Part shown: piece after piece, positions 45,382 to 59,626 of the stretch
Layout: each line of letters begins with the position of its first letter
Numbering within the stretch: position 1 is the stretch's first letter
Source of the DNA: Prevotella sp.
GTDB taxonomy: Bacteria; Bacteroidota; Bacteroidia; Bacteroidales; Bacteroidaceae
Assembly (NCBI GenBank): GCA_017557405.1
Contig: JAFYYV010000047.1
Coordinates: 1-64,000, forward strand
Direction: 5' to 3'
Length of the DNA: 64,000 nt
The notes under the pieces: generated by a model
Told to the model about the DNA's origin: nothing
Databases searched by the model: none
The model's input: the letters and a program-made list of their open reading frames with translations, nothing else
Program-made: the position numbers and the translations under genes

Positions 45382-45410
45382 GCCTCTCGAAGCTTATCCA
45401 CCAACAAATA

Positions 45411-45446
45411 AGAGCATCCGAATCAGTTCGGGTGCTCTTTGTTTTT
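45411..45446 (+). terminator. terminator of nifJ
   Basis: AGAGCATCCGAA (45411-45422) and TTCGGGTGCTCT (45427-45438) form a stem with a 4-nt loop and one G-T pair, followed by TTGTTTTT. It lies 30 bp after the stop. Confidence 0.85.
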
Positions 45447-45799: not shown

Positions 45800-47452
45800 A
45801 TGAAACTAAAGTGGATTCTGCTAACACTCGTCCTCTTCGTCCTGACGGCCTGCACAGCCGACCATGAGGCAATGCGACAGCGGCTGAAGTACCTCAGCGA
45901 CTGCAACCGTGCCGACACCGTGTTCACAGGCCGGTGGCTCCCCACCGTTGATTCCCTTGTGGTTTACTTCGACCGTCACGGCTCGGCAAACGACCGCATG
46001 ATGGCCCACTATGTGCAGGGGCGCGTCTACCACGATATGGGCGAAGCCCCTCAGGCACTGGAGTGTTACCAGAGAGCCGCCGAGCAAGCAGACACCACTC
46101 GCTCGGACTGCGATCTCTACACGCTTTATGCTATATATGGTCAGATGTCTGTACTCTTCCATTCGCAGTTCCTTCCCGATGATGAAATGCAGGCATTACA
46201 AATGTCAGAGTGGATAGCACGCAAAAATAGCGATACTATTGCAGCTATTAAAGCATACGAATTAAGAATCAGACCTTATTCTTTGAAAGGCGAAAAGGAC
46301 AGTATGATCTTCATCATGAAGAATGCCAGAAAGCAGTATTTATTAGCAAAGGATACTGCACATGCTGCCACGGCAATCTATGCTGCAATAAGTATTTATC
46401 TTGATTGCCATAATTATTCTGAGGCAAAACAGTTGTTGGATATCTATGAAAAAGAATCAAGTAATTTTGATGAAGATGGCAAACTAATAAAAGGCGAATT
46501 GTATTATTATGACAAGGGCCGTTATTTGTTAGAAATAGGCAAGACTGCAGAAGCAAAACAATACTTTGAAAAGATATCTGATAGAGGGTTGTATGAAGCA
46601 AAGTTTCGTGGACTACTCTCAGTCTACGAGAAGCAGGGCACCCCAGACTCTATTTCTAAATTTGCCAAACTTTTTGCTGCTGCCAACGACTCCAGTTTTT
46701 TATATGTCAACCAACAACAGGTGGAACAGGTTCGAGCAAACTATAATTATCATCACCAGCAGCAGATGGCAGAGAAAAGGAAGCAAGAAGCGAGGAATTG
46801 GATGATAGGAGTCATTGGAACTGTCATGACCGCGTTGCTGTTGATTGCTATCCTTATATTATTGTTTTATCGTTTTAAGGTAAGGCAGCTTGAGGAAATA
46901 AGCGACTTGAGGGAAACTAAGGAGAATCTGGAACAGTTGTTGGCAGAAAAGGAAGTGACCTCTGAAGAAATAAGAAAGGAAATCGTCCGGTTGAACAATA
47001 AGAACTCCAGCAATTCAAAGAGACACAAGGAAAACGTCAGCAGATTGCAAGTACAGATAGAAACCCTGCAGAAGAAGCTACTGGATAGCATACAGACAGC
47101 AGAGACTGATCCTAGTTTTGAACACTTGATAGTCGATTTCAAGAACAGGTTGCTGGAATATCATAAAGGCGATAAACCACCGACTGAATCAGAATGGGCG
47201 CAGCTGAAAAAAGCTTTTTCTTACAACCATCGTAGCGGTTACCTGCTGGTTACGTCACCACGTAACATGACGGAAGAGCAAATCCGCGTATGCCTGATGA
47301 CGATGTTGAGGATCAGTGAGAGCATGATGGCCTTTGCCCTTGATACTGACGGTAGACGCGTTGACAGAGTTAAGCGTCAGGCAAACAAGAAACTCTTCGG
47401 TGAAGACAATGCAAGGACGTTGAAGAGCAACCTTCAGCCATATTACCCATAG
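45800..47452 (+). CDS. TPR lipoprotein with transmembrane helix and coiled coil
   Basis: A 550-residue protein: signal peptide with lipobox VLTAC (Cys near 18), TPR-type helical repeats (about 60-320), one transmembrane helix (about 345-370: VIGTVMTALLLIAILILLF), a coiled coil (about 375-455, many Leu/Glu/Lys heptads), and a C-terminal cytosolic region. This is the architecture of Bacteroidales TPR sensor-like proteins, here without a clear DNA-binding domain (a remnant LuxR-like fold is possible). It precedes the peptide locus and could sense or regulate it; that is inference. Confidence 0.78.
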   Translation: MKLKWILLTLVLFVLTACTADHEAMRQRLKYLSDCNRADTVFTGRWLPTVDSLVVYFDRHGSANDRMMAHYVQGRVYHDMGEAPQALECYQRAAEQADTTRSDCDLYTLYAIYGQMSVLFHSQFLPDDEMQALQMSEWIARKNSDTIAAIKAYELRIRPYSLKGEKDSMIFIMKNARKQYLLAKDTAHAATAIYAAISIYLDCHNYSEAKQLLDIYEKESSNFDEDGKLIKGELYYYDKGRYLLEIGKTAEAKQYFEKISDRGLYEAKFRGLLSVYEKQGTPDSISKFAKLFAAANDSSFLYVNQQQVEQVRANYNYHHQQQMAEKRKQEARNWMIGVIGTVMTALLLIAILILLFYRFKVRQLEEISDLRETKENLEQLLAEKEVTSEEIRKEIVRLNNKNSSNSKRHKENVSRLQVQIETLQKKLLDSIQTAETDPSFEHLIVDFKNRLLEYHKGDKPPTESEWAQLKKAFSYNHRSGYLLVTSPRNMTEEQIRVCLMTMLRISESMMAFALDTDGRRVDRVKRQANKKLFGEDNARTLKSNLQPYYP

Positions 47453-47463
47453 GCGGATCCGAA

Positions 47464-47540
47464 GGGTGTAGAAATGTGTAGATATTTTGTTCAAGTTGAT
47501 AATCAATGAGTTAGGGCGGAGGGTGTAGATAAGTGTAGAT
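47464..47540. repeat. paired GTGTAGA direct repeats
   Basis: GGGTGTAGAAATGTGTAGAT (47464-47483) and GGGTGTAGATAAGTGTAGAT (47521-47540) match at 18 of 20 bases. Each holds two GTGTAGA copies 10 bp apart. They lie upstream of the DUF3244 gene in a non-coding gap and flank GTTGATAATCAATGAG (47495-47510). Confidence 0.65.
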
Positions 47541-47559
47541 TTTTTCTGATATTTTTTTG

Positions 47560-47590
47560 TTTGAGCATTTTTCTTTTTACAATATCTTTA
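47560..47590 (+). promoter_or_regulatory. possible promoter of the peptide locus
   Basis: TTTG (47560-47563), a 19-bp spacer, then TATCTTTA (47583-47590), one base off the consensus. It lies 20 bp after the second GTGTAGA pair, so that pair could be an activator site. Confidence 0.45.
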
Positions 47591-47621
47591 CAACCAGTAA
47601 AACCAATTATTGCAAAGAATT

Positions 47622-47990
47622 ATGAAGAGAAAAATTTTGTTACTCATTGCCATTGTAAGTATGACATTCACATCATTCTGTTATGCAAGTGAGGCTGGAG
47701 AACCTATATCCTTAGAAGGAGGGTATATAGATCCGACATCTCCACATGATGATCCCCACAAAGGCCCCGTTCTGGTTCCTGAGGTCTCTCTTGATGACCA
47801 CACGCTGTACTTCTTCACTCCGTGTGACGGCTACACGCTGAACCTCGTGGACGAGAATGATGTAGTGGTCTACACCATCGTGATTCCCACAGGTACTACC
47901 TCATGGGTACTTCCTGCAACCCTCTCTGGCGAGTATGAACTCCAGCTTATCAATGGCAACTACTGCTTCTGGGGGATGATTACTTTATAA
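47622..47990 (+). CDS. DUF3244-type secreted protein
   Basis: A 122-residue protein: signal peptide (MKRKILLLIAIVSMTFTSFCYA), then a single immunoglobulin-like beta domain with LPATLSGEYELQLINGNYCFWG, the DUF3244 pattern of small Prevotella/Bacteroides periplasmic proteins. The ATG at 47622 was chosen because the signal peptide starts there. It sits 62 bp before the VKOR fusion gene. It could be an accessory or protective protein of the peptide locus, but no evidence fixes this. Confidence 0.7.
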   Translation: MKRKILLLIAIVSMTFTSFCYASEAGEPISLEGGYIDPTSPHDDPHKGPVLVPEVSLDDHTLYFFTPCDGYTLNLVDENDVVVYTIVIPTGTTSWVLPATLSGEYELQLINGNYCFWGMITL

Positions 47991-48052
47991 ATTAATGTAG
48001 CAAGCCATAAGTGCAAGTAATTCTTTTCAAGCATATTCTGTTTTTATCCACG

Positions 48053-49669
48053 ATGAATTTCATCAGAAATCTGCTATACCCCATGTCAAATGTAGAAGAG
48101 ATTGCATTTCTCATCTGCGAAGATCTTGGTGTCAAGGTGTCTCTCAATAGCTTGTCTAAACATTTGCGAGAACATCCTTATTTCCCAAGTTTATTGGCCG
48201 TACATGATGAGCTCAAGACTATTGGAATAGACACTTTGACACTGAAAACCAATGACATACAACAAGTTAAGCAGCATACAGCGTTGGTTCAAATAAAAGC
48301 AGAAGATGGCGGACACCTGTTTGCCTATACTTATGCCCAAACAGACGAATGCCTTGACTGGTTCAATCCCATAAAGCACAAGCGAGAAATCATAAAGCAC
48401 GAGGATTTTTCGGGAATTTTTACGAGTTATGTGATGCTGTTTGAAGCATCCAGCAGTGCTGGTGAAAAAGACTATCCGTCATCGCACCGTTCTGAAACCA
48501 GACAAAGCATCATAGAATTCGCTCTGATACTTTTCGTTCCCGTCTTTTTTGCCTTGACGACAACTATTCATATTTCGCAGACTGGATTTGAATTTTGGCA
48601 GCGATATCTCTATGTCTTGTTTCTTTTGGTAGGATACGCTATCTGCGGCCTGTTGCTGCTTCACGATTACAACGAAGAAAGCTCCATTTTGTCAAACTTT
48701 TGCGGACGAAACGAGAAAACCAATTGCGCTGCCGTTTTGCATTCAAAAGGCTCTCAATTTTGGGGAATCTCGTGGAGCGTCATCGGAGGCGCGTATTTTC
48801 TGGGGATGCTTCTTACTCTACTCATCTCTTTCTATGACAGCAGAATATTCCATACCATTGCCGTCTTACACGGGTTTACCCTGCCTTATGTCATCTATTC
48901 CCTTTATTACCAGAGATTTAAGATAAAACAATGGTGTACGCTGTGCTTGTCCGTACAGGCAGTACTTGTAATCCTATTTTTCCTATCTGTGATTTTCGGG
49001 GCATATCACCATATCAAAGAGATTACTGTATCCTCAATAATTTTTGTTTTGGGCATATCGTTTTTGGCTTTTACTTCTTTATTCTTTTTGTGGCACCTCG
49101 CAAAACAAGTGAAAGAAAATCGCTATGGAAAAAGAATGCTGAACAGATTCAAGTACGACAAAGATGTTTTCAATGCGTTATTGCAAAAGCAGAAGAAAAT
49201 CACCATCCCGACGGAGGACTATGGCATCATTTTAGGCAATCCGAATGGAAACATTCATATCGTAGAAGTCTATAATCCGTATTGTGGTCATTGTGCCAAT
49301 GCACAGGCGGAATTACGGAAATTATTGGAAACGAATGATGAAATAAAAGTGCATATCATTTTTGCCGCCGACCCAGATTCTGAATACTATGACCAAATGC
49401 CCATTGACATGTTTTTGAGTCTTTACGAGGAGAAAGCCGATGTAGCATCTGCCCTCTCGGATTGGTTCGACGGGAAAGTTAAAACCACTGAAGAGTTAAA
49501 ACAGAAATATCCCGTTACCCACGTAAACACTCCCAAAAACAGGGAAAATGCAAAGGCAATGGATCGATTCTGCAAAGAAACGGAGATTACGGGGACACCC
49601 ACTATATTTATCAACGGAAATCGGTTGCCAGACATTTATCGTACTGGTGATTTGATGTTTTTTTATTAA
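48053..49669 (+). CDS. C39-like / vitamin K epoxide reductase / thioredoxin fusion
   Basis: A 538-residue inner-membrane oxidase. The N-terminal cytosolic domain (about 1-125) looks like a C39 peptidase fold without its catalytic Cys (VEEIAFLICEDLGVKVSLNS, HPYFPSLLAVHDEL). A VKOR domain follows with about five helices, loop cysteines (SNFCGRNEKTNC, near 220-230) and the active pair C295-T-L-C298. A periplasmic DsbA/thioredoxin-like domain comes last, with C411-G-H-C414. Together these make disulfides, passing electrons to quinones. The gene is followed 32 bp later by a six-cysteine peptide precursor, its probable substrate. An upstream in-frame ATG at 48011 is less likely. Confidence 0.88.
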   Translation: MNFIRNLLYPMSNVEEIAFLICEDLGVKVSLNSLSKHLREHPYFPSLLAVHDELKTIGIDTLTLKTNDIQQVKQHTALVQIKAEDGGHLFAYTYAQTDECLDWFNPIKHKREIIKHEDFSGIFTSYVMLFEASSSAGEKDYPSSHRSETRQSIIEFALILFVPVFFALTTTIHISQTGFEFWQRYLYVLFLLVGYAICGLLLLHDYNEESSILSNFCGRNEKTNCAAVLHSKGSQFWGISWSVIGGAYFLGMLLTLLISFYDSRIFHTIAVLHGFTLPYVIYSLYYQRFKIKQWCTLCLSVQAVLVILFFLSVIFGAYHHIKEITVSSIIFVLGISFLAFTSLFFLWHLAKQVKENRYGKRMLNRFKYDKDVFNALLQKQKKITIPTEDYGIILGNPNGNIHIVEVYNPYCGHCANAQAELRKLLETNDEIKVHIIFAADPDSEYYDQMPIDMFLSLYEEKADVASALSDWFDGKVKTTEELKQKYPVTHVNTPKNRENAKAMDRFCKETEITGTPTIFINGNRLPDIYRTGDLMFFY

Positions 49670-49701
49670 TCTTATTTATTCATTTAAAACGTTTAAAACG
49701 T

Positions 49702-49947
49702 ATGAAAAAGTTAAAATTGAATTTGTCACCGAATCTCGGTGAGGTGTTAACGAAAGACGAACTCAAACATGTGTTCGGAGGTAGTGGGGTTGGAAGCGGA
49801 TCAGGATCAAGTTCTGGTACTTTAGAAAATTGTGGTTGCAGCGGCAAAAAAGAAAATGACTCATGCTGTTATTACAAAGACGGTACTAAGTACGATGGAC
49901 ATTGTAAGTATCTGCCATTCTCAGGACTTCAGTGCTGGGGTGGTTAA
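49702..49947 (+). CDS. double-glycine-leader peptide precursor with six cysteines
   Basis: An 81-residue precursor. The leader (1-27, MKKLKLNLSPNLGEVLTKDE then LKHVFGG) has the LS-x-EL-x-GG form cut by C39 peptidases, as in GG-type Bacteroidales natural-product precursors. The core (28-81) begins with a Ser/Gly tract (28-39) and has cysteines at 44, 46, 55, 56, 68 and 78, enough for three disulfides. The adjacent oxidase, two glycosyltransferases and C39 exporter suggest a disulfide-bonded, possibly glycosylated secreted peptide such as a bacteriocin or signal; that is inference. Confidence 0.85.
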   Translation: MKKLKLNLSPNLGEVLTKDELKHVFGGSGVGSGSGSSSGTLENCGCSGKKENDSCCYYKDGTKYDGHCKYLPFSGLQCWGG

Positions 49948-50000
49948 ATGGCATGTTTTTAATCTTTTTGTGTAATAAACAAATTGAATCTCTCGTTATT

Positions 50001-50040
50001 TACAGTGAGGAGGGTTTTGTAATAATACCCCCTCGCTGTA
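50001..50040 (+). terminator. stem-loop after the peptide precursor
   Basis: TACAGTGAGGAGGG (50001-50014) pairs with CCCCCTCGCTGTA (50028-50040) with small mismatches. It lies between the precursor and the outer-membrane protein gene. Only a weak T-rich sequence follows, so it may act as a partial terminator or 3' stabiliser. Confidence 0.6.
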
Positions 50041-50082
50041 GATTTTAAATGCCATGATGCGATCCTTAAATAAAATAAAGAT

Positions 50083-52908
50083 ATGCAACCTTCAAAAAGC
50101 ATCATTGTAGCCATTTTGCTCACGCTGTTGAGCTTCGTGCAAGCCTCCGCCAAGGAGCACGACCACCAAGTTCAAGGAGTCGTTTTCGACAGTTTTTCCG
50201 AAGACGGACTGCCAGCCCTCATCACGCTGATGACCGCCGACAGCGTCGTTATCGACACCGTCAGGGCTGTTCCCAGCAACTACCCTTTCCGCACCTATCC
50301 CCGTGCCGCCGACTATCGGTTCACGATTCAGAAAGTGGGCCACTACATCGTGAAGGCGGAAATGGAGGGCTACATCGACGCCTACGTGAACTTTGAGTTG
50401 CGCAGTCAGCGAGAGCAGACCGTCAGCGTAAAGCCGCTTCGGATGATGAAGGCGTTTCACGACCTGCCCGAAGTGACCGTGAAGGCAACGAAAATCAAAA
50501 TGGTGATGCGGGGCGACACGATTGTCTATAACGCCGATGCCTTCAACTTGGCCGAGGGTTCGATGCTCGACGCACTGGTGAGCCGGTTGCCAGGCGTGAG
50601 GCTGACAAGGGAGGGCGAGATTTTCGTGAACGACAAGAAGATTGAGAGCCTGCTCGTGAACGGGCGCGACTTCTTCAGCGGCAGTCCGCAGGTGGCACTG
50701 CAAAACCTGCCTGCCTACACGGTGAGCAAAATCAAGGTCTATGATGAGGCCGGTGCCGCCTCGCGCATCATGCAGCGCGACATGAGCGACAAGCGGTATG
50801 TGATGGACGTGAATTTGAAAAAGGAGTATTCCAAGACTTATATCGGCAATGCCGAGGTCGGCTATGGCACAGAAAATCGCTATTTAGTGAAGATTTTCGG
50901 GATGAAAATGTCGGATCTGGAGTGGATAGTTGGTTCTGTCAATGTCAATAACCTGAGCGACAACCAGAAAATCGGATTTGATTATGGAAGCAACGGGTTC
51001 GACTGGACTCCGCAGGATGCGGTCGATGGGCGGATGACCAACCGCGAGGCGGTTTTCGGCTACACACGATTTCTTCGTGATAGTCGTAACTGGTTTAGCT
51101 GCGAAATCACGCTGAACCATAGCAACTACGACAACGAATCGCGCACGACCACGCAGACCTATCTGCCCGAAGGCGATTCCTTCCAGAAAAATCAGAGTCT
51201 TTCCGATTCAAAAACGACATGGTATGAAGGCAGCCTCAATCATCACCTCGAAAAAAATGGCATTTTCAATATGGCGAACTTCAACTTGCACTACAACAGC
51301 CGTGACGGCCTCAGCCACACGATCCAGACCACCAGCGACTCGGTCTCGGTGCTCAACGAAATGCTGTCGCGCGGTTCTTACAAAAATCAGATTATTCACC
51401 CCAGTTTTACTTTGGATGGCGGCGCGAAAATCATCGCCGATATGCTTCGGTGGAATTTCAACGCCGACTACGACCGATACTCCGCCGACCGTTTCTCGCT
51501 CAACGATGTTCAATATATGAACGGCCAGACGCCGCGTGACTTCCGCAACACCTACGGCGACAACGGACATCAGCAGTGGAACATCAAGGCGAACTCCTTG
51601 TACGAAATCTGCTGGCCCGACAAGAAAATCGCGCCCGAATACGAATACAATTACCGTTACAACAAAACCTCGAATATGCTCTATCGCTTGGACAGGCACA
51701 TCGATAGGGATTCCGCGATTTGGGATATGCTGCCGTCGGCCCGCGAAGCTTTGATCGACGTGCTCGACAAGCCCAACAGCTACGATTTCCACGAATATCA
51801 GAACCATCATCGCTTCAAACTTCAAGTGGTATCTGGGGAGGAATACTCCGATGAAAAAGGCATCGTGAATTATTGGCGATTGCAACTTCCCCTGCGCATC
51901 GAGCACAACAACCTTTACTACAACCGCCTCGGACGGCACGACGTCAGGCGACACGCCGTGTTTTTCGAACCGGATTTCAATGTCAAAGGAAAGATTTGGG
52001 ACATCAAATGGAGTTTTTCGGCCAATATGTGGTCGGAAATTCCCGATATGACTATGCTCGTGAACTATCGCGACGACACCAATCCGCTCAACATCCGCCT
52101 CGGCAACCCCGACCTGCGCAATCAGCACTACTACAGTGCATCACTCAACCTTCGGCATTGGATAGACAAACATCAGCAGTCATATTGGCTGACCATCGGC
52201 TACAACCAACAGGACAACGCCGTCGCCTATGCCACCGAGTTCGACAAAAAGACTGGCATCTCCACCGTGCGACCCGTCAGCGTGAACGGCAACTGGAACA
52301 CGAGCGCGAATTTCGGCTTCTCGCGTGCGCTCGGAGAGTCCGAGAAGTTCACCATCAACAACCAACTGGGCTACAACTACCACCACAGCGTCGATATGGC
52401 GACCGTTTCTGGCTTCGCCTCGACCGTGCGCAGCATCGTCAACAACCACCAGTTCAGCGACAACCTCCAACTGACCTTCCGACCCAACGACAACTACGAG
52501 TTCACGCTGCACGGTGGCGGCACCTACTACCTCGTCGGTAGCCGTCGTGAGGGCTTCGAAAACATCAACGCCAGCGACTATCAAGTCGGCTTCAACTCGA
52601 CACTGAACCTGCCTGCGAAGTTCCAGTTCGCCACCGACCTGACAATGTACGCCCGTCGCGGCTATCAGCAGCGCGAGATGAACGCCACCGACTGGGTCTG
52701 GAATGCCCAACTCACGCGCAGTTTCCTCAAAGGAAAACTCCTCGCCAAACTCAAGGGCTTCGACATCCTGCAACAACTCTCCAACACGCGCTACGTGATG
52801 AATGAACAAGGCCGCACCGAGTCGTGGCACAATAGTATTCCGCGCTACGTGATGTTCTCGCTTTCGTGGCGGTTCAATATTACACCACAAAAGAAAAATG
52901 AACTATGA
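50083..52908 (+). CDS. outer-membrane beta-barrel protein, TonB-receptor-like
   Basis: A 941-residue outer-membrane protein: signal peptide (about 1-23), a carboxypeptidase-regulatory-like beta domain (about 28-125), a plug-like domain (GDTIVYNADAFNLAEGSMLDA, LVNGRDFFSG), and a large barrel ending in VMFSLSWRFNITPQKKNEL. It resembles OMP_b-brl_3-type barrels often encoded with peptide exporters. Its codon and base composition is GC-richer than the neighbouring glycosyltransferase genes. Possible roles are export across the outer membrane or uptake/immunity for the peptide. Its stop overlaps the next ATG. Confidence 0.88.
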   Translation: MQPSKSIIVAILLTLLSFVQASAKEHDHQVQGVVFDSFSEDGLPALITLMTADSVVIDTVRAVPSNYPFRTYPRAADYRFTIQKVGHYIVKAEMEGYIDAYVNFELRSQREQTVSVKPLRMMKAFHDLPEVTVKATKIKMVMRGDTIVYNADAFNLAEGSMLDALVSRLPGVRLTREGEIFVNDKKIESLLVNGRDFFSGSPQVALQNLPAYTVSKIKVYDEAGAASRIMQRDMSDKRYVMDVNLKKEYSKTYIGNAEVGYGTENRYLVKIFGMKMSDLEWIVGSVNVNNLSDNQKIGFDYGSNGFDWTPQDAVDGRMTNREAVFGYTRFLRDSRNWFSCEITLNHSNYDNESRTTTQTYLPEGDSFQKNQSLSDSKTTWYEGSLNHHLEKNGIFNMANFNLHYNSRDGLSHTIQTTSDSVSVLNEMLSRGSYKNQIIHPSFTLDGGAKIIADMLRWNFNADYDRYSADRFSLNDVQYMNGQTPRDFRNTYGDNGHQQWNIKANSLYEICWPDKKIAPEYEYNYRYNKTSNMLYRLDRHIDRDSAIWDMLPSAREALIDVLDKPNSYDFHEYQNHHRFKLQVVSGEEYSDEKGIVNYWRLQLPLRIEHNNLYYNRLGRHDVRRHAVFFEPDFNVKGKIWDIKWSFSANMWSEIPDMTMLVNYRDDTNPLNIRLGNPDLRNQHYYSASLNLRHWIDKHQQSYWLTIGYNQQDNAVAYATEFDKKTGISTVRPVSVNGNWNTSANFGFSRALGESEKFTINNQLGYNYHHSVDMATVSGFASTVRSIVNNHQFSDNLQLTFRPNDNYEFTLHGGGTYYLVGSRREGFENINASDYQVGFNSTLNLPAKFQFATDLTMYARRGYQQREMNATDWVWNAQLTRSFLKGKLLAKLKGFDILQQLSNTRYVMNEQGRTESWHNSIPRYVMFSLSWRFNITPQKKNEL

Positions 52909-53567
52909 ATACGAAACAAATATCTGTCTATGCACCAAATCTGTCGGAGCGAAAAGATAGGCTAAAATCCATCCAAAGGCAATTTTCCGGAAAACCCGAA
53001 TTTGACTTCGCCGTAGTTCCTGCTATAAGACATGAAACGGGAGCTTTTGGCCAATGGCAAACATTTGTAAAATTAGTCAAGCAGGAACTGAAAAAAAACA
53101 GCGAGTACTTTATTTTCTGTGAAGATGACCATGTGTTTACAAAAGACTATCGTTTTGAATATCTGTTAGAATGCATTCAGCAAGCAGACCGTTTCGGAGC
53201 GGACATTTTGTGTGGCGGCATCGCTTATGTCATAGATGCCATTCGGTGTACAGACCATTTGTTCTGGATGAAAACATTCAATGGTATGCAGTTCACTGTT
53301 ATTTTCAATCGTTTCTACGAAAAAATCATCCAGTCTGATACAGAAGAGGGCTTTGTTTCGGATTATTATCTTTCAGAAATTAGCGATCATAAATTTGTGA
53401 TGCATCCTTTTATTTCCATTCAAAAGGAATTCGGATATTCTGACATTACGGCGCAGAACAATCAAAAAGGATATGTGAGAAGGTGTTTTAAAACGATCGA
53501 TGAAAAATTACACCTATTAAAGAAAGTAGAACAATTTTACAAAAAAGCAACATATGAAATACGATGA
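52905..53567 (+). CDS. GT25-like glycosyltransferase (paralog 1)
   Basis: A 220-residue cytosolic protein resembling the LPS glycosyltransferase family 25: N-terminal SVYAPNLSERKDRL, and the acidic metal-binding motif C-E73-D74-D75-H76 preceded by a hydrophobic strand (YFIF). It is clearly paralogous to the next gene (EDDHVFTKDY against EDDHIFTKFY; GYSDITAQNN against GYSDVTASNN). It starts within the preceding stop (ATGA). Acting on the peptide precursor would be a glycocin-like role; lipopolysaccharide or another acceptor is possible. Confidence 0.78.
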   Translation: MNTKQISVYAPNLSERKDRLKSIQRQFSGKPEFDFAVVPAIRHETGAFGQWQTFVKLVKQELKKNSEYFIFCEDDHVFTKDYRFEYLLECIQQADRFGADILCGGIAYVIDAIRCTDHLFWMKTFNGMQFTVIFNRFYEKIIQSDTEEGFVSDYYLSEISDHKFVMHPFISIQKEFGYSDITAQNNQKGYVRRCFKTIDEKLHLLKKVEQFYKKATYEIR

Positions 53568-54216
53568 AATATCAATACCGACCTATGTCATCAACCTGCC
53601 TGAGCGTGTGGAACGCAGGGATAACATCATGAGCGAATTTAAAGACAGAAAAGAATTTGAATTACATATCGTAGAAGCCACAAGGCACGAAATAGGAGCC
53701 GTTGGACTTTGGAAAAGCATTAAAGACATCATTCAAGAGGTCGTTTCTAAAAACGAAGACGATGTTATTATTATATGTGAAGACGATCATATTTTTACGA
53801 AATTCTATCAAAGGGATTTGTTTATATCCCAAGTCTGTCGTGCAGCGCAACTTAACACACAGATATTATTTGGTGGCATCGGAGGATATGAAAATGCCGT
53901 GAAAATTTCGGATGATATGTTTTGGATAGATTGGAATTGGTGTACGCAGTTTATGGTTGTATATAAACCAGCCTTTGAAAAAATTCTAAAAGCAAGATTT
54001 ACGAAACGTGATGTTGCTGATGAGTTTCTAAGCAAGATTATTTCCAATAAAATGGTGCTTTATCCTTTTATCTCCCGTCAAAAAGATTTTGGTTATTCTG
54101 ATGTGACAGCATCCAATAACAACAATAAAGGACTGATAGAGAATCTATTCGACAAGACAGAAGCTCGTTTAAATAAAATGATGGATGTTTATCAGAATTT
54201 TTGTGGCTTTCAATGA
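53554..54216 (+). CDS. GT25-like glycosyltransferase (paralog 2)
   Basis: A 220-residue cytosolic protein with YVINLPERVERRDNI at the start, the form most typical of GT25, and the acidic motif E76-D77-D78-H79. It overlaps paralog 1 by 14 bp and the exporter by 4 bp, so the three are tightly coupled. It is as long as its paralog and both keep the acidic motif, so two sequential sugar transfers are possible. The specificity cannot be read from sequence. Confidence 0.8.
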   Translation: MKYDEISIPTYVINLPERVERRDNIMSEFKDRKEFELHIVEATRHEIGAVGLWKSIKDIIQEVVSKNEDDVIIICEDDHIFTKFYQRDLFISQVCRAAQLNTQILFGGIGGYENAVKISDDMFWIDWNWCTQFMVVYKPAFEKILKARFTKRDVADEFLSKIISNKMVLYPFISRQKDFGYSDVTASNNNNKGLIENLFDKTEARLNKMMDVYQNFCGFQ

Positions 54217-56426
54217 AAACACAACGCTTTCCCCATTTGCTTCAATACGATGCCGCCGACTGCGGCCCAGCCTGCCTGCGCATGGTGTCGAAGCATTACG
54301 GCAAGGAATACTCAGCGGAAATGCTACGCCAGCATTGTTTTATTTCTCGCAACGGAGTGTCGATGTTGGGTATCAGTGATGCCGCGGAAAATTTGGGATT
54401 CCACACGATGGGTGTGAAAATTTCGTTTGAGCAGTTGACGGAAGAGGCTGTTTTACCTTGTATTCTGCACTGGAATCAGAATCATTTTGTGGTGTGCTAC
54501 AAAATCGAGAAAAAACGCAAGGGGAATTACAATATCTATATTTCCGACCCTGCTTCAAAGAAACTTTGCTATACGAAAGAGGAGTTCTTGAAATGTTGGT
54601 TGAGCACGAAGTCGGGCGATGTAGAGAAAGGTGTGGCCTTGCTGTTGGAACCCGGCGTGAATTTCGGAGAATGTGATGAAGAAGTCATCACACAGAAGCG
54701 CAGCCTTAGTCATTTTTTGAAATACCTACTTCCCTATAAAAGCCAGTTCTTCCAATTGATATTGGGAATGGTGGTGGGCTGTATGCTCCAACTGCTTTTT
54801 CCGTTTCTGACACAGGCGATGGTGGATCTCGGCATCGAAGGCCGGAATATGAACATCATCACCTTGATTCTCATTGCACAACTAATGCTTTTCTTGGCAC
54901 AACTCAGCGTAGGATATATCCGCAGTTGGATTCTGCTACACGTAAACTCGCGCATAGATATTTCACTGATTTCCGATTTTCTGATCAAATTGATGAATAT
55001 GCCCCTACATTTTTTCGACACCAAGAAAATCGGCGACATCTTGCAGCGTATAGGCGACCACGGGCGCATCAAGAGCTTTCTGATGGGTAATTCCATCAAC
55101 ATCGTCTTCTCTTTGGCGAACTTTTTCATCTTTGCAGCGGTTTTGGCCTACTACCATTACAAAATTCTGGTCATTTTCCTTATCGGAAACTTTTTCTATG
55201 TCTTGTGGATTCTGTTTTTCATGAAGTATCGCCGGGAACTTGACATCAAGCGTTTCAACCAGTCGGCAATGGAGCAGAACAAAGTGATACAGATTATTCA
55301 AGGAATGCAGGAAATCAAGTTGAACAACTGCGAACGGCAAAGACGCTGGGAATGGGAGCGCATACAAGTGAAACTCTTTAAAATCAGCCTGCGCGGATTG
55401 ACCATCGGCCAAATTCAACAAGCAGGCTCTATATTTTTTACGCAGACCACGCACTTCATCATCACATTCATTGCCGCCCGTGCCGTTGTCAACGGCGAGA
55501 TGACGCTCGGTATGATGATGTCGATGACCTATATCATTGGCCAGATTTCGGCTCCGATAGGAGAGTTTATCGGATTTGCTCAGGCTTTGCAGGATGCCAA
55601 GATCAGTTTGGAGCGATTGAACGAAATCCACGCACAGGACGACGAGGAGAAAGACATCGCCCGGAAACTGACCATTTTGCCGGAAAACAAATCCATCAAG
55701 ATAGAGCATTTGAAGTTCAGTTACGACGGCTCAGACAGGCAACACGCCCTTGACGACATCTCACTTGTGATTCCCGAACACAAAGTGACAGCCATCGTTG
55801 GAGAGAGTGGCAGTGGAAAATCGACGCTCGTTAAACTGATACAGGGTTTCTATACGCCCAACAGCGGAAGCATCAAAATTGGTACGGCCAACCTGAACAC
55901 CATCAATCCGCATCTGTGGCGCAGCAAAACAGGAAGTGTGATGCAGGAGAGTTTTATCTTTTCCGACACCATTGCCAACAATATCGCTTTGGGCACGGAC
56001 AAGGTGGACGCGGAACGCCTATATCATGCCTCTGTTATGGCCAATGCCGATGAATTCATTTCCGAATTGCCATTGGGATATAACACGCGCATCGGACAGG
56101 AAGGAATCGGTGTCAGCCAAGGGCAACGACAACGGCTTTTGATTGCGAGGGCCATCTATAAAAATCCCGAATTCATCTTTTTCGACGAGGCGACCAACGC
56201 ACTCGACACGTCCAACGAACGGCTGATTATGGGGAACTTGCAGGAATTTTACATGGGAAAGACCGTCGTAATCGTCGCCCACAGATTGAGCACGGTCGTC
56301 AAAGCCGACCAAATTGTGGTGCTTAAACAGGGAAAGATTATTGAGCAGGGAACGCACAAGGAACTTATTCAATTGGGTGGGGAGTATTATACTTTGGTTA
56401 AGAATCAACTGGAATTAGGAACGTAA
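54213..56426 (+). CDS. C39-peptidase ABC exporter
   Basis: A 737-residue protein: N-terminal C39 peptidase (about 1-150) with catalytic C17 in DAADCGPACL, His in NHFVVCYK and Asp in ISDPA; a six-helix ABC membrane domain (about 160-460); and an ATPase with Walker A GESGSGKST, signature VSQGQRQR and Walker B FIFFDEAT. It cleaves double-glycine leaders while exporting the peptide. The start is the ATG at 54213, overlapping the preceding TGA; an earlier ATG four codons upstream is less likely. The precursor at 49702 is its probable cargo. Confidence 0.94.
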   Translation: MKTQRFPHLLQYDAADCGPACLRMVSKHYGKEYSAEMLRQHCFISRNGVSMLGISDAAENLGFHTMGVKISFEQLTEEAVLPCILHWNQNHFVVCYKIEKKRKGNYNIYISDPASKKLCYTKEEFLKCWLSTKSGDVEKGVALLLEPGVNFGECDEEVITQKRSLSHFLKYLLPYKSQFFQLILGMVVGCMLQLLFPFLTQAMVDLGIEGRNMNIITLILIAQLMLFLAQLSVGYIRSWILLHVNSRIDISLISDFLIKLMNMPLHFFDTKKIGDILQRIGDHGRIKSFLMGNSINIVFSLANFFIFAAVLAYYHYKILVIFLIGNFFYVLWILFFMKYRRELDIKRFNQSAMEQNKVIQIIQGMQEIKLNNCERQRRWEWERIQVKLFKISLRGLTIGQIQQAGSIFFTQTTHFIITFIAARAVVNGEMTLGMMMSMTYIIGQISAPIGEFIGFAQALQDAKISLERLNEIHAQDDEEKDIARKLTILPENKSIKIEHLKFSYDGSDRQHALDDISLVIPEHKVTAIVGESGSGKSTLVKLIQGFYTPNSGSIKIGTANLNTINPHLWRSKTGSVMQESFIFSDTIANNIALGTDKVDAERLYHASVMANADEFISELPLGYNTRIGQEGIGVSQGQRQRLLIARAIYKNPEFIFFDEATNALDTSNERLIMGNLQEFYMGKTVVIVAHRLSTVVKADQIVVLKQGKIIEQGTHKELIQLGGEYYTLVKNQLELGT

Positions 56427-56438
56427 CAGACTGGAAAA

Positions 56439-57164
56439 ATGGAAAACAAAAGTAAAAACATAAACATCGAATTGAGAAGCGAGGAGGTGCAGGAACTGAT
56501 GGGGAGAATACCGCCAGTTATTCTGCGTGTCGGAATCGGAAGTATTCTCTTGATTCTGTTGTTGTTTTTCGTCGCAAGTTTCCACATCAAATATCCGACC
56601 TATGAAACGGTTCCAGTGAAACTAAATATAGGTGAGAATACATGTGATGTTGTTATGCCTTTTGACGGAATTATTGTCAATTTAAATGTCGATGACGGGG
56701 AAAGCATAAAAATGCACGACACGTTGATGCAAGTTGTCAATCCGATACCGTCAGGCAACGACATAACCGTCTTGCGCTCTCCTTCAGATGGAATCGTATA
56801 TGCTTGTGATTTCTTGGAAAAAGGGATGTCTTTCAAGCAGGGAACGCCTCTGTTTGTTATTCGTCAGGGTTGCAACGAAAAAATGACGGGAAAATGCTAT
56901 ATCGGCCAACAAATCAAACAGAAAATGGAGATAGGCACAGAGATAGAATGCGTTGGCCAAGGAGTTGTGTTAAATGGAAGAATCGGAAAGGTGGCGAAGG
57001 TGATGAATCCCCAACAAAAAGGGTATGCTGTAGAAATTGTTTTTGATGAAAATGCATTGCCAGAGGACATTCAGGCAACGAGTGATCTTTTCGCCAAGTT
57101 TCAGATATCGGAAAGCACTATTTTCGAGCTGTTTTTCTTGAAATCGATGCTTCCGAAGATATAA
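56439..57164 (+). CDS. short HlyD-type membrane fusion protein
   Basis: A 241-residue protein: short cytosolic N-terminus, one transmembrane helix (about 30-50: VGIGSILLILLLFFVASFH), then two lipoyl halves in one row (MPFDGIIVNLNVDDGESI and SPSDGIVYACDFLEKGMSF), and a beta-barrel-like end. It lacks the long coiled-coil hairpin of classical HlyD adaptors (usually about 400 residues). It follows the ABC exporter by 12 bp and probably links it to the envelope or outer-membrane protein. Confidence 0.85.
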   Translation: MENKSKNINIELRSEEVQELMGRIPPVILRVGIGSILLILLLFFVASFHIKYPTYETVPVKLNIGENTCDVVMPFDGIIVNLNVDDGESIKMHDTLMQVVNPIPSGNDITVLRSPSDGIVYACDFLEKGMSFKQGTPLFVIRQGCNEKMTGKCYIGQQIKQKMEIGTEIECVGQGVVLNGRIGKVAKVMNPQQKGYAVEIVFDENALPEDIQATSDLFAKFQISESTIFELFFLKSMLPKI

Positions 57165-57456: not shown

Positions 57457-57487
57457 TTGCATGCACCTGCCGATTGTCTTAATTTTG
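57457..57487 (+). promoter_or_regulatory. promoter of the VapE-family gene
   Basis: TTG (57457-57459), a 20-bp spacer and TAATTTTG (57480-57487). This places the start of transcription near 57493 and the translation start at 57509. Confidence 0.7.
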
Positions 57488-57508
57488 CAGAAGTCAATCC
57501 AAAAAGCT

Positions 57509-59626
57509 ATGGAACTATCAGTATTTCGTAATTTCTGGGACAAGGTGCCGGTCAGCAGTACGCTGGAAGCGATGGTGGAGGCTATCCGCTCTGACCAGCG
57601 GACAAGGGAACTGACGGAGGGGTATCGGCTGCACCAGTTGGACTCGCTGAAGAACGAGAGTATGCTGTTTGCCGTGCCGTGTGTGTTCGAGGGCGGCAAA
57701 GCACAGAAGCATGTGGTGAGGTTGACGGGAATGGCGATGGTGGACTTTGACCACGCCGACCAATTGATAATTGAAAATGGAAAATTGAAAATTCAGACCG
57801 ACCCGCACACACTGCTGTGCTATACGACGATCAGCGGCGAGGGGCTGCGGGTGCTGTACCGCTACGAACTGGACGAGGCGTTTCCGCTGAAGCAGCAGAT
57901 ACAGTACTACCGCAAGGCGTTTGCAACGGGCAATGCGTACTACGGGCAGTTGATTGGCGCGGAGACGGACGTGAAGTGCAAGAACGTGACGAGGCTGACG
58001 GTAGTGGCGCATGACGAGGCAGTGTACTTTAACCCCAAGGCAGAGGCGTTCTCGGCAGCGTGGATAGAGGTCGAATGGGAACGGCTGCAGGGGCCGCAGA
58101 AGGCACAGCGCAAACAACAGCGCGAACTAGCTCGCATCCGCAGGGTGTACGAAAAGACCATCCGGCCGGAAGTGGAAGCCGAAGGGGCGGTGTACACCGA
58201 CGGTTCGCACAACGACTACGTGATGCGCGTGGGCTACCGGCTAAACCAGTTCGGTTTCTCGTTGGAGGCCGCTAAGGAGTGGGCCATCAGCGAGTTCGCG
58301 GATTATGAGCGCACGGCAGACATCATCACGTATTGCTATGAGAAGGAGGAAGAGCACGGCAGCCGTGGCGGACAAAAGCACTACTATGCAGCGGCGGGTG
58401 GCAGCGGGTTTGCGTCGGTGGAGGAGATTAGGACATACCTCGGTGAGCATATCCAGCTGAGGCATAATGTGATAACGATGCGAGTGGAAAGCCGTGTCCC
58501 CTCCCAACTTCCTCTGTATAAGGGAGGAGAATGGTTACCTATCACTGACCGCATAGTAAACTCGCTATGGTCAGAGATGTCGAATAAGAGACGGGTGAAC
58601 GCACAGGACATCTACCGAGTGATAGAGTCGGATTTCGTCAAGGATTTTCATCCGTTCAAGGAGTATCTGGAATCGCTTTCCACACACACCGACCAGACTG
58701 ACTACATCCGCGAACTGGCCGCGACAGTCAGGGTAAAGGGTGGGCCAGCAGAACAGGAACTCTTTTACCTGTATCTGAGGAAATGGCTCGTGGCAATGGT
58801 CGCTGGATGGGTGGACGATGCCGTCGTGAACAATGTCATCCTGGTGCTGATAGGCGAACAAGGCTCGTACAAGACGACGTGGTTCAATTTTCTCCTTCCG
58901 CCAGAATTGTCGAAATATTTCTATACAAAGACCAATGCCAACCGGATGGGGCGCGACGACCTGTTGACGTTGGCGCAGTACGGGCTGGTGTGCTGTGAGG
59001 AACTGGACACCATGCGCCCCTCAGAACTGAACCAGTTGAAGGCTGCGGTCACCATGCAGAGCATCGACGAGCGGGCGGCATATGCCCACTTTCATGAGCA
59101 CAGGATGCACATCGCATCGTTCTGCGGCACGGGCAACAACGTGCAGTTCCTCTCCGACCCCACGGGCAACCGCCGCTGGCTGCCTTTTGAAATCGTGGAC
59201 ATACGGTCGCCCCGTGAACAGCCGTTCAACTACGAGGGTATCTATAGCCAGGCATACCAACTCTATCGCTCGGGGTTCCAGTACTGGTTTTCGAGGGATG
59301 AGATCGTGCGGCTGTCGGAACATAACCGCCAATATGAGACACCTCGGTTGGAGCATGAACTGGTGCAGTTGTACTTCCGACAGCCCAGAGAGTTGGAGAG
59401 CGGCGTGTTCATGAGCGTGGGCCGCGCCCTGCAGATTGTCAGCAGCAACATCTCGCAGAAACTGTCGGTGGTCTATATGGGCCGTGCCTTTGCCGAACTG
59501 GGTTTCCGTCGTGTGAAATGGGGCGGCCAGCGTGGGTATATTGTCTTGCAGCGTACCGCTGAGGAGATTCAGATGGTGCAGCGCTCGATGGCTGCACAGG
59601 CCGTGACGGAGGAAACGGGGCGGTAG
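57509..59626 (+). CDS. BT4734/BF3469-type protein with VirE/VapE P-loop domain
   Basis: A 705-residue protein. The N-terminal part (about 1-200) matches the BT4734/BF3469 primase-like domain (MAMVDFDHAD, TTISGEGLRVLYRYE); the C-terminal half is a VirE/VapE helicase-like ATPase with Walker A LIGEQGSYKTTW (about 450) and ENRRWLP-like TGNRRWLPFEI. Such proteins head the small module of mobile origin found throughout Bacteroidales. A low-complexity insert (LIIENGKLKIQTD, DNA 57761-57796) lies in the N-terminal domain. Confidence 0.88.
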   Translation: MELSVFRNFWDKVPVSSTLEAMVEAIRSDQRTRELTEGYRLHQLDSLKNESMLFAVPCVFEGGKAQKHVVRLTGMAMVDFDHADQLIIENGKLKIQTDPHTLLCYTTISGEGLRVLYRYELDEAFPLKQQIQYYRKAFATGNAYYGQLIGAETDVKCKNVTRLTVVAHDEAVYFNPKAEAFSAAWIEVEWERLQGPQKAQRKQQRELARIRRVYEKTIRPEVEAEGAVYTDGSHNDYVMRVGYRLNQFGFSLEAAKEWAISEFADYERTADIITYCYEKEEEHGSRGGQKHYYAAAGGSGFASVEEIRTYLGEHIQLRHNVITMRVESRVPSQLPLYKGGEWLPITDRIVNSLWSEMSNKRRVNAQDIYRVIESDFVKDFHPFKEYLESLSTHTDQTDYIRELAATVRVKGGPAEQELFYLYLRKWLVAMVAGWVDDAVVNNVILVLIGEQGSYKTTWFNFLLPPELSKYFYTKTNANRMGRDDLLTLAQYGLVCCEELDTMRPSELNQLKAAVTMQSIDERAAYAHFHEHRMHIASFCGTGNNVQFLSDPTGNRRWLPFEIVDIRSPREQPFNYEGIYSQAYQLYRSGFQYWFSRDEIVRLSEHNRQYETPRLEHELVQLYFRQPRELESGVFMSVGRALQIVSSNISQKLSVVYMGRAFAELGFRRVKWGGQRGYIVLQRTAEEIQMVQRSMAAQAVTEETGR

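Follow-up and report, generated by a model that had tools for sequence, protein, structure and literature searches.

A GT25-like glycosyltransferase pair and a Gly-Ser tract in predicted disulfide-rich, exported peptides of Prevotella and its relatives

The window, that is the whole stretch of 64,000 nucleotides of Prevotella sp. contig JAFYYV010000047.1 analysed here, contains a locus in which a small precursor with a Gly-Gly (GG) leader is encoded together with a vitamin K epoxide reductase (VKOR)-thioredoxin oxidase, an outer-membrane beta-barrel, two GT25-like glycosyltransferases (GT1 and GT2), a C39 peptidase-containing ABC exporter and a short HlyD-type adaptor. All these genes, including an 81-aa GG precursor with six cysteines and a Ser/Gly tract, had been named in an initial annotation, and all were found. 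We are nearly certain that the product is a disulfide-rich peptide exported by the C39 route. The comparison with relatives gave a new result, namely an association between the glycosyltransferase (GT) pair and a Gly-Ser tract at the start of the core. To judge from the sequences, the pair likely acts on the precursor, we favour the tract as its target, and the locus as a whole probably makes a secreted, disulfide-rich peptide O-glycosylated by the pair on the serines of this tract. It should be noted that we infer the action of the GTs on the peptide and on these serines, as well as the identity of the sugar, the sequence of steps and an antibacterial function.

In the precursor the GG pair occupies residues 26-27, all six cysteines fall in the core and the core carries the sequence GSGSGSSSG. 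Without modification the core has a calculated average mass of 5567.0 Da when reduced and 5561.0 Da with three disulfides. The leader has V, L and L at positions -4, -7 and -12, which fill pockets of a C39 protease in the part of the structural study considered here (PMC6363468). The exporter possesses the C39 triad (D-C-G, H and D) and is the sole strong C39 place in the genome, the second, weak one being the VKOR protein itself. The precursor could be aligned with those of four other loci (L035, L057, L079 and L141; L numbers denote loci or stretches, G numbers genomes), and the cysteine order of the window's core, C-C-CC-C-C, fits the inhibitor-cystine-knot pattern, a fold considered as a candidate only. 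Against TIGR04149 the window precursor scored 15.4 bits (cut-off 25); among the scanned precursors of six relatives, that of L055 (Chryseobacterium) passed this model with 26.5 bits and that of L040 passed the bacteriocin leader signature TIGR01847 with 18.3 bits. Counting only cores with at least 4 Cys, we found an even cysteine number for 74 of the 83 precursors encoded in GT-pair loci and for 62 of the 65 from VKOR loci that lack the pair. These even numbers, with the six invariant redox cysteines of the oxidase described below, lend good support to the earlier prediction of an oxidised, secreted peptide.

GT2 homologues are rare, being found in 2/295 genomes sampled across the order and 12/301 across the family (own genome counted in both), and a larger GT profile at E<=1e-10 matched 1/198 genomes of the phylum, which was again the own genome. 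Some of the family and order relatives are partial or broken copies (L031-L033), and in L034 a GT25 is present but a C39 exporter or VKOR was not found beside it. When a species collection was scanned with the profile, 119 stretches were confirmed, and the top 80 were kept, equal to 79 distinct loci; the titles of these are names of Bacteroidota genera or groups. They were labelled as 59 tandem GT loci (two adjacent genes or one two-domain protein), 18 GT4-GT25 loci (fused or split) and 2 single ones, and L105, whose GT genes are 0.9 kb apart, was moved from the single to the tandem class, giving 60 GT-pair loci. A VKOR was present in the fetched stretch of 40/59 tandem loci and 1/18 GT4-GT25 loci, and LanC-like proteins in 0/59 versus 11/18; since many fetched stretches end at contig ends, absences are weak. 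Of the 60 GT-pair loci, 57 have at least one of VKOR, C39 and a Cys-rich GG precursor, 45 have the precursor, and in 27 VKOR, C39 and HlyD all occur in the stretch. None of the three was found in the stretches of L036, L100 and L109; L036 has a Cys- and GSG-rich candidate whose leader ends differently. The search proposed by the initial annotation for other loci pairing GT25-like genes with GG precursors and VKOR fusions returned a recurrent set, and GTs widespread without a precursor, the finding that it had named as contrary, were not seen within the loci searched.

In Hoylesella oralis (L035) the window's genes occur in identical order, which, like the 27 loci with VKOR, C39 and HlyD, speaks against a chance grouping. 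This genome has two copies of the system (L035 and L070); in each the exporter is split into two frames of 313 and 421 aa, and the scores are equal between the copies. A sister system is formed by L023, L031, L059, L068 and other GT4-GT25 loci, often with a LanC-like protein and with larger GG proteins sharing a start like GGGxGTxxxPYTxxEF.

The idea that the GT pair goes with a Gly-Ser tract came from reading the precursors, as cores of GT-pair loci seemed to start with xGS or GSG. Controls were picked by VKOR alone, with a VKOR match in 24/247 phylum genomes and 23/301 family genomes (own included in both); the VKOR places of G390 and G530 were excluded because their stretches, L022 and L024 (the same as L040 and L086), carry a GT pair. 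Of 50 further VKOR stretches (L114-L163), L138 has GT25 domains, leaving 49 controls without GT25 (GT-). The GT+ set comprised 63 loci (the 60, the window, L028 and L138), and the same precursor finder was used for both sets. Precursors with fewer than 4 Cys or with a core of at least 130 aa were excluded and are reported apart. With 16/63 GT+ and 15/49 GT- loci having no precursor that passed this filter, 47 and 34 loci were compared; the leader pattern had been composed after viewing window-like leaders, and others could be missed.

From this comparison a tract by either criterion was found in 30/47 GT+ and 5/34 GT- loci (Fisher P 1.1e-5). GS within 5 residues of the cut occurred in 28/47 versus 3/34 (P 2e-6) and GSG or SGS ahead of the first Cys in 24/47 versus 4/34 (P 3e-4), although some of the GT+ loci are closely related (L061, L062, L072 and L138, for instance) and the loci are not independent, so that all these P values overstate the association. 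Counted per precursor, GS near the cut was present in 48/83 GT+ and 5/65 GT- sequences. The motif is also more frequent than composition predicts: GT+ cores hold 81 GSG against 11.4 in shuffled sequences (0/2000 shuffles as high), and GT- cores hold 8 against 4.1 (92/2000 as high). The 62 GT-pair stretches contain 16 open reading frames (ORFs) of fewer than 450 aa with at least three GSG. A GG or GG-like leader is present in 13, and the other three, Pro-rich Chryseobacterium frames, were taken as non-genes; there were no such ORFs in the 19 GT4-GT25 or single-GT stretches or in the 49 VKOR controls. By a strict nine-residue test two GT domains are intact in 38/63 loci and one in 25/63, some of the latter deviating merely by one residue or a short start, and among loci with a Cys-rich precursor the tract was found in 24/31 with two intact domains and in 6/16 with one. 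In the window tract the serine codons are AGC, TCA, TCA, AGT and TCT; AGY and TCN codons are mixed in five of seven tracts (window, L024, L028, L056 and L075, not L073 and L081), which speaks against DNA slippage as the sole origin of those five. The cautious wording of the initial annotation, 'possibly glycosylated', is thus strengthened by association, since the pair tracks the tract and 45 of its 60 loci have a Cys-rich GG precursor, while the sugar itself is our inference.

Larger substrates were also considered. Six GT-pair loci whose stretches have no VKOR (L075, L076, L094, L091, L095, and L028, which lies at a contig end) encode GG or GG-like proteins that are 169-256 aa long and have at most two Cys. 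In five of these six GSG exceeds shuffled sequences (as high in 0/2000 shuffles for L075, L094 and L028, 2/2000 for L076 and 33/2000 for L091), and in L095 it is not enriched (915/2000). Across the sequences there is a tendency for VKOR to accompany Cys and for the GT pair to accompany GSG, the latter in small and large substrates alike. The rule is not strict: seven tandem loci have Cys-rich precursors and no VKOR in the stretch. A natural contrast is offered by L141, a VKOR/C39 locus without GT25 whose precursor has nearly the window's Cys order and no tract; as this contig stops some 30 bases from the start of VKOR, a GT may lie beyond its end.

The same 169-256-aa proteins, as likely substrates of the pair in six loci, bear on the role of the product. 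Together with the lack of a recognised immunity gene, they speak for a secreted signal, or an adhesin-like or surface-coating glycopeptide, instead of a toxin. This alternative is compatible with glycosylation but seems to us rather unlikely, as the small size and Cys content of the cores, the presence of several precursor variants in one locus (for example in L079, L043 and L103) and a patchy distribution fit weapons better. On balance we incline to an antibacterial role, in which the peptide would be a weapon against related bacteria.

Several observations weigh against glycosylation on the tract. Precursors without a tract occur in 17/47 GT+ loci, among them four of the seven loci whose GT genes come with a methyltransferase (L039, L040, L045 and L046), and conversely a tract is present in 5/34 GT- loci. 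GG precursors with GGSG or GSSG occur in G785, where no GT25 was found in the genome or in the 48 kb around them, and L128 encodes six short GG peptides with KGSGNGSG beside a VKOR without GT25, which are Cys-free and outside our counts. A tract stands beside one degenerate GT in L063, in L113 and, with a Cys-poor substrate, in L028 (the degenerate domain being the second in L113 and L028), so that two intact GTs are not always needed. The eight Chryseobacterium-type loci whose first GT domain lacks its motifs, seven of which also lack the tract, are a single lineage. More generally, the association is one between genes and is partly due to shared descent.

The 17 loci that keep the GT genes without a tract, and the GSG peptides of L128 and G785, are what would be expected if the pair glycosylated the peptide elsewhere, on Cys, Thr, Tyr or other core Ser, and the tract were an inherited flexible spacer. 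We consider this improbable: GSG lies far above composition in GT+ cores, much more weakly so in GT- cores, and is repeated in the Cys-poor substrates, and the odd Cys number expected for S-glycosylation is rare (9/83). Least probable is that the pair acts on a surface glycan or the barrel, for example in self-protection, and that the peptide is an unglycosylated bacteroidetocin-like bacteriocin: PF01755 is described as a lipopolysaccharide biosynthesis family, the GT genes touch the exporter and barrel genes, and the four-gene bacteroidetocin region, in the part of its description considered (PMC6671954), has neither a GT nor an immunity gene, but 51/60 GT-pair stretches lack a match to the window's barrel and the pair tracks precursor features and also accompanies Cys-poor GG substrates, a linkage to GG peptides that makes the surface-sugar reading less likely.

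Some side observations concern peptides without GT25. The seven GG precursors of G785 (L164, G785:C20) are interspersed one by one with ORFs for lipoprotein-like proteins of 357-393 aa, and L118 (G679:C3) has 14 different Cys-rich GG precursors in one VKOR/C39 stretch. L127, L128, L132, L133 and L134, likewise without GT25, encode short Cys-free GG peptides on the strand opposite VKOR; a stretch has as many as six of them, and their second half contains Gly/Asn/Ser tracts.

Concerning the family of the two GTs, the window's pair itself is weakly assigned to GT25: PF01755 gives GT2 15.1 bits (cut-off 24) and does not match GT1. It matches 51 of the 58 members of the GT alignment at E<=0.01, window GT2 not being among them, and scores the fused pairs of L073 and L075 with 43.1 and 43.5 bits, over the cut-off, and that of L040 with 23.9 bits, under it. 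No SunS/GccA-type enzyme was among the PDB matches of the GT profile at E<=10, although SunS structures exist in the PDB; the best match was the mimivirus R655 glycosyltransferase (0.0036). In NCBIfam the window GT1, GT2 and precursor have no match above cut-off and the GT proteins of two relatives no meaningful score, and a search of viral contigs with GT2 gave no relative. In a tree of 58 chosen rows (domains below 230 bits left out; 'first' and 'second' assigned by gene or domain order, with 14 rows set by hand, in L051, L053, L069, L082, L094, L103 and L110), first and second GT domains form separate clades of 27 and 31 rows with 100/99 support. We read this topology as an old duplication whose products stayed together, as would be expected for two different steps. 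A further observation is that GT-GT-methyltransferase fusions of 615-669 aa occur in L039, L040, L045, L046, L056 and L066, and L086 has a separate methyltransferase gene; the tract is very long in L056 and long in L086, and in L066 a precursor was not found in the stretch.

When presence of the GT pair is mapped onto a tree of 88 VKOR proteins, at least 7 changes are required, suggesting that the pair was gained or lost repeatedly and does not mark one clade. Pair and tract occur together in the window's large clade (with L060, L077 and L106 as members without a tract), in the Pedobacter group, in L086 and in L056, and the pair occurs without a tract in L040/L045/L046 and in Chryseobacterium. 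The window VKOR groups with the two Hoylesella oralis copies inside a 21-row clade (support 100), the rest of which is from Chitinophagaceae, Sphingobacteriaceae and one metagenome-assembled genome titled only Bacteroidetes. This nested position suggests transfer, in either direction, between those families and oral relatives of Prevotella.

The oxidase matches VKOR with 64 bits and Thioredoxin_4 with 39 bits, both over cut-off, and Peptidase_C39 with 18.6 bits starting at profile position 21. Its cysteines C207, C215, C285, C288, C401 and C404 are invariant in 13 aligned sequences, window included, and correspond to the loop pair, the VKOR CxxC and the thioredoxin CxxC, as in VKOR-thioredoxin disulfide oxidases. 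Peptidase_C39 matches 11 of the 13 at E<=1e-3, the window's own value being 0.0017. In the matches inspected in detail the alignment starts at profile position 20-21, behind the part with the catalytic Cys, and the C39-like N-terminal part has no invariant Cys in the 13 sequences; it is therefore apparently a C39-like domain without its catalytic nucleophile. In the PDB the profile matches PCAT1-type C39 exporters. By analogy with other exporters, where C39-like domains recruit substrates according to the part of the study considered (PMC6363468), this domain (48053-48450) could dock the GG leader. A term search for C39, peptidase and bacteriocin in a VKOR phylogeny article (PMC4555120) found none of these words.

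As to the passage through the envelope, HlyD proteins shorter than 300 aa were found in 11 rows besides the window (10 distinct stretches, L022 and L040 being the same). The barrel is present in 9/12 rows with such a short HlyD (8/11 distinct stretches) versus 2/66 with a longer one, and both of the latter also have TolC; in export the barrel may replace TolC. The short HlyD (228-254 aa) pairs with an OMP_b-brl_3 barrel in the window and in L039, L040, L045, L046, L147, L152 and L155.

Taken together, the gene set would work as follows if the tract is the acceptor. The GG leader would be the recognition element of a ribosomal precursor, and in the cytoplasm GT1 and GT2 would add sugars to serines of the tract after the cleavage site, with one step for each enzyme, for example priming and then extension. 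The C39 exporter would cleave after Gly-Gly and translocate the core through the inner membrane. As the core emerges, three disulfides would be made by the VKOR-thioredoxin protein, and the short HlyD and the beta-barrel would carry it through the envelope.

The glycocins (sublancin, glycocin F and thermoglycocin), in the part of the literature considered (PMC12457901), share with this locus a GG-type leader, a C39 exporter, thiol oxidoreductases and disulfides, and have a dedicated peptide glycosyltransferase, as is likewise expected here. They differ in having one SunS/GccA-type enzyme and separate thioredoxin-like proteins, where the window has two GT25-like enzymes, a VKOR fusion and a Gly-Ser tract. 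The resemblance to glycocins with other enzyme families, noted by the initial annotation, is a fair description: the logic of GG leader and C39 exporter is shared and a SunS/GccA-type enzyme was not encountered. SunS/GccA-type enzymes belong to family GT2, and glycocins are from Gram-positives, in contrast to the Bacteroidota here. By the features tested the locus does not appear to be a classical glycocin.

Bacteroidetocins (class IIf) resemble the window's product in being Bacteroidales GG peptides that contain several Cys and are encoded with a thiol oxidoreductase and an ABC exporter of the C39 type. In the part of their description considered (PMC6671954) they are defined by a GG leader of 15-16 aa and a separate gene for a protein with five transmembrane helices, and no immunity gene was seen. 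The window differs in its 54-aa core with six Cys and a Gly-Ser tract and in the added GT25-like pair, barrel and HlyD. We rejected this identity since the leader has 27 aa and a separate five-helix gene was not found among the proteins at 45.7-59.6 kb (by eye, with hydropathy for some).

The radical SAM (rSAM) GG-Bacteroidales systems (TIGR04149, TIGR04150 and TIGR04157) also have Bacteroidota GG precursors, C39 export and a glycosyltransferase nearby; unlike these, the window has a VKOR and a GT25 pair without GT4. This candidate was rejected as well, because TIGR04149 stays under its cut-off and the rSAM partner is lacking: no radical SAM or pseudo-rSAM protein was found among ten window proteins scanned at 45.7-59.6 kb. 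A TIGR04150 protein occurs with a GT4-GT25 protein in L071, where TIGR04157 reaches 42.5 bits, far under its cut-off. Class IIb microcins of Enterobacteriaceae have a GG leader, C39 export and a Ser/Gly-rich C-terminal tail bearing a glucosylated siderophore; there the tract is C-terminal, and no siderophore gene was recognised in the window. A survey of Bacteroidales ribosomally synthesized and post-translationally modified peptides (RiPPs) reports rSAM, LanC and some glycosyltransferases, and the words glycocin, vitamin K and thioredoxin are absent from its main text (PMC10352776). In the open-access PMC literature our searches found no paper on the present system, none that joins glycosyltransferase family 25 with RiPP or bacteriocin, and none that treats vitamin K epoxide reductase together with a bacteriocin and a glycosyltransferase in Bacteroidetes.

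The features of the locus are collected in Table 1.

Table 1. Features of the peptide locus and of the genes before it (window coordinates)
Feature	Position	Strand	Basis
TPR membrane protein with helix-turn-helix-like C-terminal end, probable regulator	45803..47452 (about)	+	weak TPR matches, all under cut-off
Small DUF3244-like protein, secreted as read from its N-terminus	47622..47990	+	DUF3244 E 0.071, under cut-off
C39-like domain, VKOR and thioredoxin, membrane thiol oxidase	48053..49669 (about)	+	Pfam; start from family alignment
Precursor, 81 aa (27-aa GG leader, 54-aa core)	49702..49947	+	sequence; aligned with relatives' precursors
Gly-Ser-rich core start, proposed sugar acceptor	49783..49824	+	sequence
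Outer-membrane beta-barrel OMP_b-brl_3, possible outer-membrane exit or partner	50083..52908	+	Pfam 71.5 bits
GT1, first GT25-like glycosyltransferase	52905..53567	+	NxxxRxxR, EDDH and GYSD motifs; 'first' clade
GT2, second GT25-like glycosyltransferase	53554..54216	+	NxxxRxxR, EDDH and GYSD motifs; 'second' clade
C39 peptidase-containing ABC exporter	54213..56426 (best start ATG 54213)	+	Pfam C39 111.5, ABC_membrane 95.1, ABC_tran 104.1 bits
Short HlyD-type adaptor, 241 aa	56439..57164	+	Pfam HlyD_3 25.7 bits; one transmembrane helix

All genes from TPR to HlyD (about 45.8-57.2 kb) lie on the same strand. Gene ends overlap at the barrel/GT1, GT1/GT2 and GT2/C39 junctions and 12 nt separate C39 from HlyD; the tight packing that the initial annotation ascribed to the last four genes is therefore real and extends to five, the barrel included. 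The unit may begin earlier, with the TPR protein and the small secreted protein, because homologues of both are near VKOR in some relatives (TPR protein in the VKOR stretches L056, L143, L144, L146, L147 and L152; DUF3244-like protein in L054, L056, L143 and L152, that of L056 with DUF3244 E 4e-4, likewise under cut-off). The TPR protein, which has one transmembrane helix past an N-terminal signal by hydropathy and a probable helix-turn-helix-like end as read by eye, is likely, though not certainly, part of it; a terminator-like hairpin (45410-45439) precedes its gene. Predicted promoters and terminators were about as many as in shuffled sequence (21 vs 21.6 and 10 vs 12.2), and among five proteins scanned with PADLOC the ABC exporter alone matched. 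The locus looks mosaic, since GC is 36-37% in the GT genes and 53% in the barrel gene and a VapE/BT4734-like primase (57461-59626) lies immediately downstream. Such primases are common on mobile elements.

A wider reading, which we hold tentatively and give somewhat less than even credence, is that of undescribed exported glycopeptides across the Bacteroidota, in which a GT25-like pair would build a row of O-glycans on a Gly-Ser runway exchangeable between Cys-rich peptides and larger Cys-poor proteins. In the small peptides the runway would lie directly behind the C39 cut, and the whole would be the bacterial equivalent of proteoglycan Ser-Gly tracts. In such tracts, as in xylosylated (G4S)n linkers, Ser beside Gly is the O-glycan acceptor in the parts of the reports considered (PMC4598785, PMC12567180); the enzymes there are of the animal secretory pathway, and the likeness is in the acceptor alone. 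If true, the locus would represent a novel route to bacterial peptides coated with sugar, adding the GT25 family and a portable Gly-Ser acceptor to ribosomal peptide chemistry and offering a testable two-enzyme tool to sugar-coat peptides. It would also explain how glycosylated disulfide peptides could be made in Gram-negative Bacteroidota, and would point to a group of probable interbacterial peptides among Bacteroidota of the mouth, the rumen and other habitats, as given by the record titles.

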